64,000 nt of DNA from Dehalococcoidia bacterium (GTDB lineage: Bacteria; Chloroflexota; Dehalococcoidia; Dehalococcoidales; UBA3254): the NCBI GenBank assembly GCA_025361145.1, contig JANYAV010000014.1:1-64000 (forward strand), read 5' to 3'. The notes below the pieces were generated by a model, which was not told the DNA's origin, made no database searches, and saw only the letters and a list, made by a program, of their open reading frames with translations. The position numbers were made by a program, and so were the translations under genes. Below, piece by piece: positions 4,760 through 16,229 of the stretch (positions are counted from its first letter, which is position 1; the number at the start of each line of letters is the position of its first letter).

Positions 4760-6841
4760 TTATTCCTTCTCCGCTGCCTTAGCTTCCAATTCAGCCTTGC
4801 GGGCGGCTGCGATCTTTTGAGCGGCGAAGGCTGGCACTTCCTCCATATGGCTGTAGGAGAAAGTATAGCGGCCTCTGCCCTGGGTGATCGATTTCAAATC
4901 AATGGCGTAGCGCTGTACTTCAGAGAGCGGTACATCAGCCTCGATAGTGTTATATCCGCCCTCAGGCAGCATACCGTGGACGCGTCCTCGTTTATTGTTA
5001 AGATCGCTCATAATATCACCGGTGTAGTGGTCCGGTACAATGACTTTCAGTTTGACGATGGGTTCAAGTAATACCGGATTAGCGGCTTCCATAGCTCTTT
5101 TGAAGGCGCCCGCCCCGGCGATCTTAAAGCAGATTTCAGATGAATCCACCGGGTGGAAACTGCCGTCGTAGCATTTGGCTTTGACATCTACTACCGGATA
5201 CCCGGCAACTGTGCCTTCCTTGATACCTTCCTTAACGCCTTTTTCCACTGCGGGTATGAAGTTGCGCGGGATAGTGCCGCCCACAGTGGTGTCTTCGAAC
5301 ACCACTGCTCCCGTACCGCGCGGCATAGGTTCTACTTCCAGCATGACGTGCCCATACTGGCCGTGTCCGCCGGTCTGTTTTTTATGTTTGTAATCGCCTT
5401 TGCCAGTACCGTGGATGGTTTCTTTATAGGGGACTTTGGGGATATCCAGAAGGACGTCTACCCCGAACTTGCGGTGCATCTTGGCGACTACCACTTCCAG
5501 CTGGGTTTCACCCAGACCGGACAATATCTGTTCGCCGGTATCTATTTCACGGTGCACCCGGATGGTGGGATCTTCTTCTGCCATGCGTGTTAAAGATGAA
5601 CCCAGTTTATCCAGATCGGTTTTGGTCTTGGGACTCACTGCGCCTTTGTAGATGGGGATGGGAAAAACGATAGGAGCTAATTTGACCGGTTTCTCTTTAG
5701 TAGCCAGGGTGTCGCCGGTACCGGTAGTGTTTAGTTTGGCCACCACGCCAATATCACCTGCCGTAACTGCATGTACCGCTTCCTGGGTCTTGCCGCGCAT
5801 CAGGTAAACCTGGCCGATGCGTTCTATTTCATTGCGGTTGGTGTTCCAGACTTGAGAGTTGCTAACGAAAGACCCCGCGTAAACGCGGAAATAGGTCAGT
5901 TTGCCCACAAAAGGATCGGCGCTGGTCTTAAAGACCAGGGCTTCCAGTGGCTCGCTAGCTGACGCAGTCACTTTTTTCAGCATGCCTTTGTCGTCGGCTA
6001 CGACCTCATACTGGCGTTCTTTAGGTGAAGGCAAATAGTGTTTAATCGCGTCCATCAATAGCGTAATACCAATATTCTGCGTGGCCGAACCGGTAATGAT
6101 AGGCACCAGTTTGCAGGTCAGAACAGAGGCTTTTAAGGCAGCTTCCAGTTCCTCCTGACTAATGGCCTGGTCGCCTAAAAATTTCTCGATTAGTTTTTCG
6201 TCGGCGGAAGCTATGGCCTCTACCATTTTAGCTCGGTAGCTGTCGGCCGTGGCTTTCATTTCGGTCGGGATATCGCTTTCTTTGGCGCCGATATAGGCTT
6301 TCATTTTTAATAAATCAATGACACCAGTGAAAGAGGTGTAGGTCCCGATCGGGATTTGCAGCGCCACGGTTTTGCCAGCCCATCTGGCTTGCAACTGATC
6401 GAATATTTTGTTGAAATCCGCGTTTTCACGGTCCATTTTATTAACAAAGATTAAACGCGGCAGGGCGGCTTCTTCACAATACTGCCAGACCTGCTCGGTA
6501 CCCACTTCGATGCCGGAGGTGGCGCCAATTAAAATCACCGCTCCTTCGGATACTCGCAGGGCGGATTTAACTTCGCCTACAAAATCCGAATAGCCGGGGG
6601 TATCCAGAAGATTAACTTTGACACCCTGCCAGGCGTATGGCAGCACTGAGAGGTTAAGACTTATTTTGCGTTGGATTTCGTCTGGGTCGTAGTCCGAAGT
6701 AGTGGTCCCTTCTTCTATTCTGCCCAGCCGGGTAGTAGCCTTGGCGTTAAACAGAATAGACTCGGATAAAGAGGTCTTTCCTGATCCCGCGTGAGAAAGT
6801 AAGGAAACGTTGCGGAGGTTCTCCAGTGTAAACTGTTCCAT
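4760..6841 (-). CDS. EF-G-like translational GTPase (second EF-G family)
   Basis: The 693-residue protein has the five-domain EF-G layout: GTPase G1 SHAGSGKTS near residue 17, G3 DTPGYSD, G4 NKMD, then domain II, III (GLGETQLEV) and the IV/V region (GGHGQYGHV, RGRVHGMLPEGG). The G1 and G3 variants and the N-terminus EKIRNVSLLSHAGSGKTS type place it in the EF-G-like group that accompanies a housekeeping FusA, rather than in FusA itself. The start at 6841 has AGGTGAG six bases upstream; an in-frame GTG two codons earlier is less likely. No str operon genes are adjacent, which supports the paralogue reading. Its 5' end was partially duplicated upstream. Confidence 0.88.
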   Translation of the reverse strand: MEQFTLENLRNVSLLSHAGSGKTSLSESILFNAKATTRLGRIEEGTTTSDYDPDEIQRKISLNLSVLPYAWQGVKVNLLDTPGYSDFVGEVKSALRVSEGAVILIGATSGIEVGTEQVWQYCEEAALPRLIFVNKMDRENADFNKIFDQLQARWAGKTVALQIPIGTYTSFTGVIDLLKMKAYIGAKESDIPTEMKATADSYRAKMVEAIASADEKLIEKFLGDQAISQEELEAALKASVLTCKLVPIITGSATQNIGITLLMDAIKHYLPSPKERQYEVVADDKGMLKKVTASASEPLEALVFKTSADPFVGKLTYFRVYAGSFVSNSQVWNTNRNEIERIGQVYLMRGKTQEAVHAVTAGDIGVVAKLNTTGTGDTLATKEKPVKLAPIVFPIPIYKGAVSPKTKTDLDKLGSSLTRMAEEDPTIRVHREIDTGEQILSGLGETQLEVVVAKMHRKFGVDVLLDIPKVPYKETIHGTGKGDYKHKKQTGGHGQYGHVMLEVEPMPRGTGAVVFEDTTVGGTIPRNFIPAVEKGVKEGIKEGTVAGYPVVDVKAKCYDGSFHPVDSSEICFKIAGAGAFKRAMEAANPVLLEPIVKLKVIVPDHYTGDIMSDLNNKRGRVHGMLPEGGYNTIEADVPLSEVQRYAIDLKSITQGRGRYTFSYSHMEEVPAFAAQKIAAARKAELEAKAAEKE

Positions 6842-6877
6842 TAACACTCACCTACTTTTACAAAATAACTTGTATGT

Positions 6878-6906
6878 ATTATAAACATAGTCGATAGCGA
6901 CGGCAA
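6878..6906 (-). promoter_or_regulatory. Promoter of the EF-G-like gene
   Basis: On the minus strand, TTGCCG (6906-6901) and TATAAT (6883-6878) are separated by 17 bases. The same arrangement recurs 442 bases away in the duplicated copy. Confidence 0.65.
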
Positions 6907-6989
6907 GTCGAGATCAGAAGGTCAATTAGAGGGCAGTGAAAATAATATGGAAGCAGAATTTACCTTTTTTAGCTCAACCTCTGAAGCAG

Positions 6990-7283
6990 TTAGGATTCTT
7001 TTTCAGCTTCGGTAATAGGTTCATCTTCTGTATCAAGCTCTTCGAAGGATTCGTCTTCGATTCCACTTTCATAAACAGAAGGTTCCTCTTCTTCGTTGGG
7101 TTTTAGAGGTCGAGGCCCTGGAGATTTCCTGGCTAGAGAAGTAGTGGTTCCTTCTTCTATCCTGCTTAACCGGGTAGTAGCCTTGGCGCTAAACAGAGTA
7201 GATACGGATAAAGAAACTTTTCCTGCTCCCACCTGAGAAAGTAAGGAAACGTTGCGGATTTTCTCCACTGTAAATTGTTCCAT
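6990..7283 (-). pseudogene. Chimeric partial duplicate of the EF-G-like gene 5' end
   Basis: The first 49 codons (MEQFTVEKIRNVSLL...) clearly copy the adjacent EF-G-like gene, and the similarity continues through the ribosome site and promoter. After codon 49 the frame runs into 48 unrelated, very acidic residues rich in Glu, Asp, Ser and Pro. The P-loop is damaged: GSGKTS became GAGKVS, losing the essential Thr/Ser. About 11 of the first 49 residues differ, mostly at important positions, suggesting relaxed constraint. It could still be expressed because its promoter (TTGTCG-17-TATAAT) and AGGTGAG site are intact. Function as a GTPase is excluded; another role is open. Confidence 0.75.
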
Positions 7284-7319
7284 TAACGCTCACCTGCTTT
7301 TACAAAGTAACTTGTATGT

Positions 7320-7348
7320 ATTATAAACATAGTCGTATACAACGACAA
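7320..7348 (-). promoter_or_regulatory. Duplicated promoter upstream of the chimeric ORF
   Basis: TTGTCG (7348-7343) and TATAAT (7325-7320) with a 17-base spacer on the minus strand duplicate the promoter at 6878-6906. The -10 box and its surroundings are identical. Confidence 0.6.
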
Positions 7349-7405
7349 GTTGTGATTAAAAGAACAATTACAGGTTACGGAAAATAATGTGGAAGCAGAA
7401 TTTGC

Positions 7406-8166: not shown

Positions 8167-8294
8167 TGTCATCCTTTAGCCTCGATCTACCTTTACTCGC
8201 CGCAGCGAATAGGATAGCTGGAGGCCCTTTAGGGCGCCTGCTGAAGGATCTGGGGCGGGGTTCATAAATCCTTAATCATAAATCTTAAATCAAA
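8167..8294. repeat. Mosaic intergenic repeat, copy 2
   Basis: The element opens with tgtcatcctt, contains the 'ctttactcgc...gaataggatagc' block shared with 2110-2190, and ends with 'gaaggatctggggcggggttcataaatcc' style sequence followed by several aatc-type repeats. The final 50 bases are almost identical to the end of the copy at 10047-10130. The outer 'catcct...aggat' parts are inverted, which suggests a palindromic element with an exchangeable centre. Confidence 0.65.
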
Positions 8295-8314
8295 CCTCGT
8301 CTCACACTGGAAAC

Positions 8315-10046: not shown

Positions 10047-10130
10047 CCTGTCATCCTGGAAGCCTCGAATGGCGAGGCTGAAGGATCTGGGGCGGGGTTC
10101 ATAAATCCTTAATCATAAATCTTAAATCAA
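10047..10130. repeat. Mosaic intergenic repeat, copy 3
   Basis: It begins 'tgtcatcctgg' and holds a perfect short inverted repeat 'agcctcg-aatgg-cgaggct'. Its last part is nearly identical to 8245-8294 ('gaaggatctggggcggggtt' and a cataaatcc-type tail). The region up to 10216 continues with 'actaattactcac'-type low-complexity sequence and a short inverted repeat GATACTGACTTCC / GGAAGTCAGTATC at about 10195-10223, which may serve as a terminator for the acetyltransferase gene. Confidence 0.65.
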
Positions 10131-10216
10131 TCTTCACCTTAATTCGGTGGAGCTTTCGTCCCTCACATTACTAACTACTAATTACTCACTACTAGATACT
10201 GACTTCCCTCAGGAAG

Positions 10217-13580: not shown

Positions 13581-13730
13581 CCTCCTCCCCTCTCCTGCTT
13601 TACGCCTGCAAGGACGGACCTTGCACGCCTGGCTCGCCCCCTTATCTCTTCTTAAATCCTTAATCCTTAATCTTTAATCTTTAATCCCCTTCTTGTCTCG
13701 CAGCTCGTCGCTCTCAGCTGGAATTTTGTT
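13581..13730. repeat. Palindrome and aatc-type low-complexity intergenic repeats
   Basis: This part of the 318-base gap between hicB and the terminase small subunit has a hairpin TGCAAGG-acgga-CCTTGCA (13607-13625) and a tract of repeated 'ccttaatc/ctttaatc' units (13650-13690). These units recur after the mosaic repeats at 8260 and 10110. No gene is supported between 13530 and 13847. Confidence 0.55.
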
Positions 13731-13847
13731 GACTAATCTGTCACTTTACATTAGCTGATTATCTGTTACGATATAATAAGAACATTAGTTCGTATTAACT
13801 GGAATGATGAGCTTACCGAAATCATTACGTCCTTTAGGAGGAATATC

Positions 13848-14228
13848 ATAGACTACTTAATAAAACATAAAAGCGGGGGTCAACCGGGAAATCAGAATGC
13901 CCGTAAACACGGGTTATATTCTAAAACTCTGCCACGCGACCAGAAACGGCAATTTAATCGCGCTCTTAAAGTGACTGGCATTGACCAGGAAATTGCCCTC
14001 TTGCGCGTCCTTTTAAACCAGCTGGTTGCTAAGGATAACTCTAACTTTCCCCTTATCTTCCAGGCGATTAAAACCCTGGGCCATCTTTCTGATATTAAGT
14101 CCGGACATAATCAGGATTTTACCCAGTTGAAAGAAGCTGTCACCGCCGTCCTCTCCGAATGGGAAATCCCTGTTCCCCCCGAGAAAGACAGTGCTGCTTC
14201 ATCGGATAGCAAAAATCATAAATCGTAA
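13848..14228 (+). pseudogene. Phage terminase small-subunit-like protein, start codon ATA
   Basis: The frame encodes about 126 residues with SGGQPGNQNARKHGLYSK near the N-terminus, a signature of small terminase-like proteins of prophages. It continues through the helical part RALKVTGIDQEIALLRVLL. A perfect AGGAGG site at 13836-13841 lies six bases before an ATA codon at 13848, exactly where ATG would be expected. The next in-frame start is GTG at 13971, which would delete the signature. Either ATA initiates poorly or the start was lost by mutation. No other phage morphogenesis genes follow except the large subunit. Confidence 0.65.
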
Positions 14229-14297
14229 ATCACTCATCCAAAACAGGGTTAGGATTTAAAATTTGGTATTTATAAATTGGGATTTGTAATTTGAATT
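14229..14297. repeat. attt-rich low-complexity repeat at the terminase 5' end
   Basis: A 60-base tract of near-repeating units of the type 'atttggtatttataaattgggatttg' runs up to and into the first codons of the large terminase gene. The same word style occurs at 4690-4735 and 53227-53300. It removes any recognisable ribosome site. Confidence 0.5.
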
Positions 14298-15093
14298 ATG
14301 ATCTTCGTCCTTATCAAGATAAAATAGCCCGGGCCATCCTCAATAGCATTTTTTATCATAAGGGACTGACCTTTTCTGTCGAGATCGCCCGTCAGGGCGG
14401 GAAAAATGAGCTCTCCTCTCACCTTGAAAGGTTTCTTCTTACTATAAATATTAACAACCCTTTGCAGCTGGTGAAATGCTCTCCCACTTTCAAACCTCAA
14501 ACCCTTATCTCCATGACTCGTTTAAAGGACCGTTTAAATGATATCGGCTTGTACGGCTGGACTTCTGAGTCTGGCTATATCATTCGGTTAGGTGAAGCTC
14601 GTGCTGTTTTTCTTTCCGCTGATGTCGGTTCGCATGTCGTCGGTAATACCGCCCATCTGTTGCTTGAGATCGATGAGTCTCAGGATGTGACTAAAGATAA
14701 ATTTACCAAGGAATTCAAACCTATGGGGGCTTCCACTAATTGCACCGTGGTCCATTACGGTACTACCTGGGACGACTCCACTCTTCTTGAAGAAGTTAAA
14801 CAAACTAATCTGGAGTTAGAGAAAAAGGACGGCATTCAGCGCCACTTCCGTTATGACTGGCAGGAAGTTGCTAAATATAACCTCGACTATCTCAACTATG
14901 TCGAATCAGAACGTCACCGTTTGGGCGAAAACCACCCCTTGTTTCTTACTCAGTACCGACTGCTTCCCATCCATGGCGGTGGCGGCTTTCTCAATTCCAC
15001 ACAAGTAACTCAAATTCTAGGCAATCACCCTCGATTGCACCACCCCGCTGACCGCATTGTGCTAAATACTGGAACCCTTTCGTCTCCATTTTC

Positions 15094-15135
15094 CGAAACT
15101 AGAAGCTCGAAGCTCGAAGCTGGAAGCTCCAAGGT
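15094..15135. repeat. agctcga-type tandem repeat inside the terminase gene
   Basis: A run of imperfect 'gaagctcgaagctcgaagctggaagctcc' units adds about 14 residues (TRSSKLEAGSSK) between the ATPase domain and the first nuclease Asp. A similar 'agcttaaagcttgaagcttaaagc' tract lies between genes at 3456-3480. Confidence 0.55.
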
Positions 15136-15249
15136 TTACGTTGCCGGTATTGATCTCGCCGGTGAAGCCGAAACTGGCGATGATATTTTCCTCAGAACCT
15201 TGAACCCGCGTCGTGATTCCACTGTAATCACCATCGCTGAACTGACAAC

Positions 15250-15345
15250 TCAAGGTCTGACCTCGCCGTATGGCAGGTCAGACCCTGAGAAACCCTTCAT
15301 AAATCCTGATTCAAATCCCTTATACCCTTTTCTAAATCAATCTCT
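15250..15345. repeat. GGTC-palindrome element in frame inside the terminase gene
   Basis: An inverted repeat GGTCTGACCT (15254-15263) / AGGTCAGACC (15275-15284) is followed by 'gagaaacccttcataaatcc' and more aatc-type words. Its structure is the same as the intergenic element at 15857-15910. It adds about 30 residues of low complexity rich in Pro and Asn to the nuclease domain without breaking the frame. Confidence 0.6.
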
Positions 15346-15856
15346 TTGTATAAAGGTCGTCGAACACTATTCGTGGGTTGGGGCACGACACACCGACCTT
15401 TATCCTAAAATGGTCGATCTTTTAAAAAACGTCTGGCATTGTAAAAGGATCGTAGTGGATTCCACTGGTGTTGGTGAGCCGGTTGCCTCTTTTCTTCGAG
15501 GGGCTCTGGGCAGTCGGGTTGTCCCTTTTAAATTCACCGCTCGCTCTAAATCTGATTTGGGTTTTAATTTATTGGCCGCCATCAACTCCGGCCGATTAAA
15601 AATCTATGCCGCGGATGGTTCTCCTGAATATCAGGAAATGATGATGAATTTGACCAGAGCTAAGAGTGTTTATCGCCCTAATCAGACCCTTAACTTCTTT
15701 GTCGATCCCAGGGACGGACACGATGATTTCTTGATGAGTCTCGCTCTTGTCGTCGAAGCCGCCGGTCTCTACCAACCCCGTACCGCTAAAGGCAGCGGTA
15801 CTTTTCTTGAATCTTGCGTACATTAATAATTTTATAATTTTGACTTTTGACTCCTA

Positions 15857-15901
15857 AAGGTCGGACCTCGCAGTCCATTTGCCCAATGCAGGTCCGACCT
15901 T
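15857..15901. repeat. GGTC-palindrome element, intergenic copy
   Basis: A perfect 12-base stem AAGGTCGGACCT (15857-15868) / AGGTCCGACCTT (15890-15901) surrounds a 21-base loop and is followed by 'atgaaacccc', as in the copy inside the terminase gene. The stretch 15827-16497 has no gene; besides the palindromes it holds tandem-like words 'cacccgttcccactcg' near 16035-16100. Confidence 0.65.
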
Positions 15902-16182
15902 ATGAAACCCCGGTTTCCTTTACCCGCTTGATTACTTTTAAGTTTTCGCAGATCTCGCATGCGTGAAACGCATCGGGATGACTTTTGACCTTTGCCTTTT
16001 AACTTCACCTTCACTCGCATCGGCTCGTCTACCACCCGTGACCCACTGGTTCCGACCCGATAACCACCCGTTCCCACTCGTTTGGGACTCGTTTCCACCC
16101 TTGTAAGTCACCATTTTAGCCTCAAATACCCAGGTTTAAACTGGCATTCCCCTTGACTCGTTTCAAAAATAGCTCCTGTCTG

Positions 16183-16229
16183 AAGGTCGGTTCTTGCGCT
16201 CCATATCTCCTAACGCAAGGCCCGACCTT
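16183..16229. repeat. GGTC-palindrome element, second intergenic copy
   Basis: Stem AAGGTCGG..CTTGCG (16183-16197) pairs with CGCAAG..CCGACCTT (16214-16229). The outer arm is the same as at 15857 while the inner arm differs, a mosaic pattern. Confidence 0.6.

Follow-up and report, generated by a model that had tools for sequence, protein, structure and literature searches.

Intergenic heptamer and palindrome repeats, probably captured in frame, in two loops of a terminase large subunit from a Dehalococcoidia bacterium

Rickettsia palindromic elements (RPEs) are palindromes found in frame inside open reading frames (Ogata 2000, 2002, as reviewed in PMC10969869). REPs occur in repair genes, and two Xanthomonas species are hit at about the same recB site (PMC3733652). 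Heptameric repeats are over-represented between genes in Xanthomonas, Nostoc and Calothrix, where a slippage mechanism related to the footprint of the polymerase has been suggested (PMC4692102). In-frame palindromes are therefore already known; heptamer capture, and loops of one protein that are filled again and again, appear to be new: the open-access literature searched held no report of a heptamer tract that became a protein loop, or of a terminase in which the same loops captured repeats more than once.

The DNA analyzed here (the window) is a stretch of 64,000 nucleotides, positions 1 to 64,000 of contig JANYAV010000014.1 from a Dehalococcoidia bacterium of the order Dehalococcoidales (GenBank GCA_025361145.1), whose assembly is 1.7 Mb in 25 contigs. 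An initial annotation of the window had described intergenic repeats inserted in frame inside a terminase gene; the observation is confirmed, and the evidence below supports its interpretation as largely right. The most probable account is that two loops of the terminase large subunit (TerL) captured repeat DNA of the type found in gaps, only in-frame events in tolerant loops having survived. The terminase genes and the tracts that adjoin them are as follows.

13755-14228, forward strand: terS-like ORF upstream of terL, 157 aa if read from the codon that directly follows a stop (putative start); matches the terminase small subunit families phrog_1889 (E 1.7e-5) and phrog_509 (E 8.7e-5)
14210-14239, forward strand: AAATC-type heptamer tract over the 3' end of terS, stop codon included; lag-7 identity 0.62 over 14205-14240
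14260-14297, forward strand: ATTT-type tract between terS and terL that reaches the TTG start; lag-7 identity 0.57
14291-15826, forward strand: terL, terminase large subunit, intact, 511 aa; open ORF with a TTG start

Profile and predicted-structure matches identify the gene at 14291-15826, first noted as a terminase gene, as an intact gene for the terminase large subunit. It matches phrog_5909 (E 3e-6), and its AlphaFold model, of moderate confidence because the mean pLDDT is 71.8, resembles the HK97, T4, Sf6 and D6E terminases, with HK97 terminase 6z6d as the best Foldseek match (E 5.5e-13). The Pfam Terminase_6C score of 22.5 falls marginally below the cut-off of 22.6, and a PDB sequence search gave no match. 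ATPase and RNase H-like nuclease domains are both present with the conserved residues that characterize terminase large subunits, and the family-conserved columns are retained in the homolog alignment. Between the window gene and its relatives, differences are about three times as frequent at third as at second codon positions, a pattern that argues for purifying selection on TerL over most of its history. Three repeat tracts had been assigned to this gene: the AGCTCGA tract and the palindrome stand, whereas the ATTT tract is intergenic, and its overlap with terL amounts to the TTG start plus about two codons, with no insertion inside the gene.

Homologs of TerL come mostly from Dehalococcoidia and other Chloroflexota MAGs, and also from IMG/VR contigs. 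The window protein was aligned with 97 of them (98 TerLs in all), which have next to nothing opposite its residues 253-277 and 325-346 (residue 1 being the one that follows the start); the segments at these two places, site 1 and site 2, are present in 0/97 homologs. The outcome named beforehand as refuting the insertion reading, namely these segments as conserved protein sequence in homologous terminases, was thus looked for and did not occur. Relative to the commonest homolog length, site 1 has 40 residues against the usual 15 (+25) and site 2 has 46 against the usual 24 (+22), a net gain of 47 residues where about 45 had been estimated. In the predicted structure, site 1 follows the final ATPase-side helix (235-241) and precedes the first nuclease-domain strand (281-287), and site 2 is the loop of a nuclease beta-hairpin whose strands are 309-319 and 351-362. 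The pLDDT is <50 over the greater part of the two sites, so the earlier placement of the repeats in linkers or loops holds, as does the statement that heptamer tract and palindrome keep the frame open. By alignment, the two segments appear to be insertions relative to the family; terL is absent from the one same-genus genome examined, which leaves no empty site from a close relative, and insertion is accordingly read from the family rather than seen. The two sites contain the following features.

15047-15130, forward strand: site 1 insert in the linker that joins the ATPase to the nuclease, +25 aa net; absent from the 97 homologs; no recognised source for its 5' half
15094-15135, forward strand: AGCTCGA heptamer tract of 5 units inside site 1; the one coding example among period-7 tracts that reach 20/28 within 464 kb
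15252-15295, forward strand: GGTC palindrome with a loop about 10 nt shorter, inside site 2; predicted fold -24.0 kcal/mol; matches the consensus
15296-15343, forward strand: A+T-rich tail tentatively resembling the AAATC intergenic tracts; 63% identity to the tract at 10098-10140; lag-7 identity 0.35

The palindrome at site 2, AAGGTCTGACCTCGCcgtatGGCAGGTCAGACCctgAGAAACCC at 15252-15295, agrees with the consensus CTAAAGGTCGGACCTCGCAGTC..CAATGCAGGTCCGACCTTATGAAACCC of a palindrome (A-type) that has 11 strict copies in the genome, against 0 for a reversed-pattern control; the covariance-model E value of the in-frame copy is 6.5e-13, that copy being itself one of the 11 training sequences. A full GGTC element had been reported at 15250-15345; the palindrome is present, but it is about 44 nt long, ends near 15295 and is followed by about 50 nt of A+T-rich, weakly heptamer-like sequence. 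Possibly this tail, which runs to 15343, is what remains of a heptamer tract. Among 12 sites that match the palindrome pattern, the terL copy alone is within a real ORF; one other overlaps a 99-aa ORF judged spurious, and the remaining strict copies are outside genes. Two further copies follow terL.

15854-15910, forward strand: canonical GGTC palindrome copy, intergenic, about 28 nt past the terL stop; consensus and covariance-model match
16183-16229, forward strand: diverged GGTC palindrome copy, intergenic; model E 5.1e-5; predicted fold -22.6 kcal/mol

The in-frame copy thus lies inside a conserved protein gene whose homologs do without it, as is characteristic of RPEs, which are likewise dispersed palindromes in frame within ORFs, encoding peptide segments judged compatible with fold and function (PMC10969869). 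It differs from RPEs as described there in its length (about 44-57 nt vs about 150 nt), in having one coding copy rather than dozens, in encoding no conserved peptide, and in that a heptamer tract has been captured too. Because the TerL homologs belong mainly to Dehalococcoidia and Chloroflexota, a likeness to RPEs is noted and membership is not claimed. The stem carries two changes, each compensated on the other arm. Such compensation, and the recurrence of length gains in the same two loops described below, would be expected if the inserts were themselves selected, either as longer linkers that tune the packaging motor or as an RNA hairpin that regulates terL expression. This reading is hardly credible: inserts in different lineages have no sequence or length in common and are predicted to be disordered, most homologs do without them, and compensated arms could be explained by template switching within palindromes or by a variant source copy as well as by selection.

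Short, dispersed in many copies and mostly intergenic, the A-type palindrome resembles RAYT-associated REP/TIR elements in these respects. The genome has four RAYT-like genes with the PF01797 (Y1 transposase) domain, and for each the sole NCBIfam match is NF047646, the model for REP-associated tyrosine transposases, at 35-59 bits, below the cut-off of 80. Three of the four, on contigs C6, C23 and C15 (C15:98140), have related AAGG..CCTT palindromes on both sides: the C6 gene is flanked by AAAAGGTGAGACCTTAAGGTCTCACCTTTT-type palindromes, the C23 gene has TGCAAGGACGGACCTTGCA copies all around it (11 genome copies at <=1 mismatch; 0 for the reversed-pattern control), and the C15:98140 gene is flanked by AAAAGGTGACACCTTTT and AAAAGGTGGCACCTTTT. 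A B-type palindrome, whose plan is common to the A-type, lies upstream of the RAYT-like gene at C15:110981, and an array of B-type palindromes lies 1.1-1.5 kb from the C6 gene. One palindrome of the kind found around the C23 gene occurs in the window.

13607-13625, no strand assigned: TGCAAGGACGGACCTTGCA palindrome upstream of terS

The suggested check for a RAYT-type transposase gave these four RAYT-like genes, three of them bracketed by related palindromes, but the A-type palindrome brackets none of the four, so that its link to these transposases is by likeness only; for the in-frame copy the link is indirect, because that copy has diverged. A GTAG or CGTC tag is absent next to the A-type stem in the copy alignment, which has CTAAAGG at its conserved 5' edge. 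The resemblance to REP/REPtron and TIRtron systems (PMC3733652) lies in palindromes that are short and mostly intergenic, that form an array near a RAYT-like gene and bracket such genes, and of which a few copies are inside ORFs; the differences from them (PMC3733652) are the lack of a GTAG/CGTC tag, RAYT-like proteins that score below the NCBIfam equivalog cut-off, and an A-type palindrome detected in 1/151 genomes of the order (E 1e-7). The palindrome at site 2 would then be a REP-like element that does not encode its own mobility, probably dispersed by RAYT-like (HUH/Y1) transposases of this genome, and perhaps arrived with the A+T-rich tail. Two side observations concern these families. 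The B-type array (C6:117770-118104) consists of five nearly identical palindromes of 47-48 nt, spaced 68-83 nt apart, and resembles a REP array. Inside the C23 RAYT-like gene, a TGCAAGGACGGACCTTGCA copy lies in frame (C23:83618-83636; L179 1472-1490) and encodes about LQGPSLQ, with no obvious change of length relative to the C6 paralog.

Repeats were surveyed in the window plus 400 kb of this genome (464 kb in total), with 20/28 or more as the strict threshold for period 7. This gave 38 strict tracts, 37 non-coding and 1 coding, the latter being the AGCTCGA tract at 15094-15135, where identity is 80% at lag 7 vs 12-19% at lags 5, 6, 8 and 9. At the same threshold, lags 4-6 and 8-13 gave 0-6 tracts in all and lag 14, a multiple of 7, gave 13, while no strict period-7 tract occurred in non-coding DNA simulated with a dinucleotide Markov model or in 150 kb of E. 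coli. With the other palindrome copies also outside genes, such repeats are otherwise nearly restricted to gaps, in line with the earlier view. The repeat unit is precisely 7 nt and over-represented between genes, as in heptameric tandem repeats elsewhere; Xanthomonas, Nostoc and Calothrix share this specific excess of a mostly intergenic 7-nt unit (PMC4692102), whereas here many degenerate words replace one G-rich word and one tract is in frame in a protein loop.

Heptamer words vary from one tract to the next in this genome, and exact matches to AAGCTCGAAGCT number 9, against 3 for the reversed-pattern control. The segments had been called inserted; absence from homologs agrees with this, but the heptamer tract need not be an inserted copy, since every tract has its own word, and slippage that lengthens a tract on the spot is no less likely. 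Probably, tracts of the class seen at site 1 grew as a 7-nt unit slipped during replication, or came with a short duplication. A 59-nt block with an AAATC heptamer tract is duplicated in the window (8240-8298 and 10077-10135; 97% identical, 1.8 kb apart), so heptamer tracts can move inside larger duplications. A looser threshold adds the end of terS and a TerL paralog on contig C20 as period-7 tracts; other tracts found in this way (14203, 33685, L186, L189 and L192) were set aside by eye as gene-edge or conserved-protein matches. A tract in the linker of a PIF1-like helicase (L198 3280-3327) was rejected as an insertion: in an alignment with two orthologs at 69% identity, the segment has counterparts and is no longer than theirs.

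Throughout the 98 TerLs, internal insertions of at least 5 residues occur at site 1 and site 2 only. The C20 paralog from the same genome (60% identity) has different inserts at both, an AAATTTC heptamer tract at site 2 and a segment of no recognised source at site 1. With a period-7 threshold for TerL genes of 15/21 or more, six tracts were found in the 98 genes, all at the two sites (the window, C20, L044, L101 and twice in L102), and 0 were found at the control lags 5, 8, 10, 11 and 13. Hairpins or REP-like sequence occupy site 2 in L129, L112, L084 and L071, and site 1 of L074 holds a CCTTCGGCAGGCTCAGGAC element with relatives around the terL genes of L079 and L080. No second copy of the L129 palindrome turned up in IMG/VR, and it is at most a candidate for a dispersed element. 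Exact inverted repeats of at least 9 in all homologs show no general concentration at the two sites (2/25), and the hairpin claim therefore rests on individual long hairpins. That the loops are ordinary fast-evolving protein segments, resembling repeats by chance or through amino-acid composition, would suit two variable parts of the TerL family and repeats as weak as the A+T-rich tail and some hairpins; the lag-7 specificity with its empty control lags, together with palindrome arms that match a genomic family in a compensated stem, makes this very improbable, and it is largely refuted for the two main segments, excepting the 5' half of site 1 and the tail.

A quick TerL tree, built without the site 1 and site 2 columns and with partial branch support, gave parsimony counts of 4 changes for site 1 inserts, 7 for site 2 inserts and 4 for heptamer tracts. 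About 8/11 independent length gains were read, from the insert survey and this tree, as captures of non-coding repeats. A broader claim, that the two loops are recurrent landing sites across Dehalococcoidia and phages, that most length gains are captured non-coding repeats (heptamer tracts or palindromes), so that protein linkers here would be built from gap DNA, and that heptamer tracts can enter genes as units, is offered tentatively, at somewhat under an even chance.

The branches of the window and C20 genes are long on the same tree (0.53 and 0.55, vs a median of 0.13), and relaxed constraint or the slow start of decay possibly follows. The main rival to capture and filtering is built on such decay: terL would be an orphan in a decaying prophage remnant, accumulating repeats as non-coding DNA does, its open frame temporary luck. 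No portal or capsid gene was found beside the window terS-terL pair, and elsewhere in the genome terL occurs twice more as a decayed fragment, with palindromes or heptamer tracts adjoining, both in keeping with decay, as is the long window branch. Decay is nonetheless unlikely, given that two separate inserts are both stop-free and in frame, that conserved columns and the third-position excess persist, and that phage-type loci with portal and capsid genes (L101 and L129) have repeats in the same two loops.

Capture followed by filtering is the simplest account, because it explains the position, frame and disorder of the inserts and the lack of common sequence between lineages. Under capture and filtering, gap-type repeats would arise or land everywhere in the genome, selection would remove nearly all events falling in genes, and in-frame events between domains or in the nuclease hairpin loop would persist as disordered loops. 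We infer RAYT-like transposases as the mover, slippage as the origin and neutrality of the added residues. If true, this is a route from intergenic repeats to protein sequence that is repeated at two places in an alignable family of about 100. Heptamer tracts, and a lineage of the Chloroflexota, would join the known cases of in-frame repeat capture, and TerL loops would offer a natural test bed for how selection filters selfish or slippage-born repeats and for the origin of flexible linkers.

Some minor observations concern the wider loci. In these MAG genomes, terS-terL pairs usually lack portal and capsid genes, and may be domesticated modules, satellites or remnants: a portal match is absent downstream in 46/52 MAG terS-terL loci with at least 1.5 kb of downstream sequence (L029-L098, L009 and the window), and present in 40/41 IMG/VR loci (L099-L142). 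Upstream of the paralogous terL at the end of contig C20 (L009; genome G000) lies a CRISPR-like array with CCCCTCACACGGGGGCGTGGATTGAAAC repeats. The window also contains a direct repeat of 266 nt (6696-6961 and 7138-7403), the copies being 85% identical and 442 nt apart.
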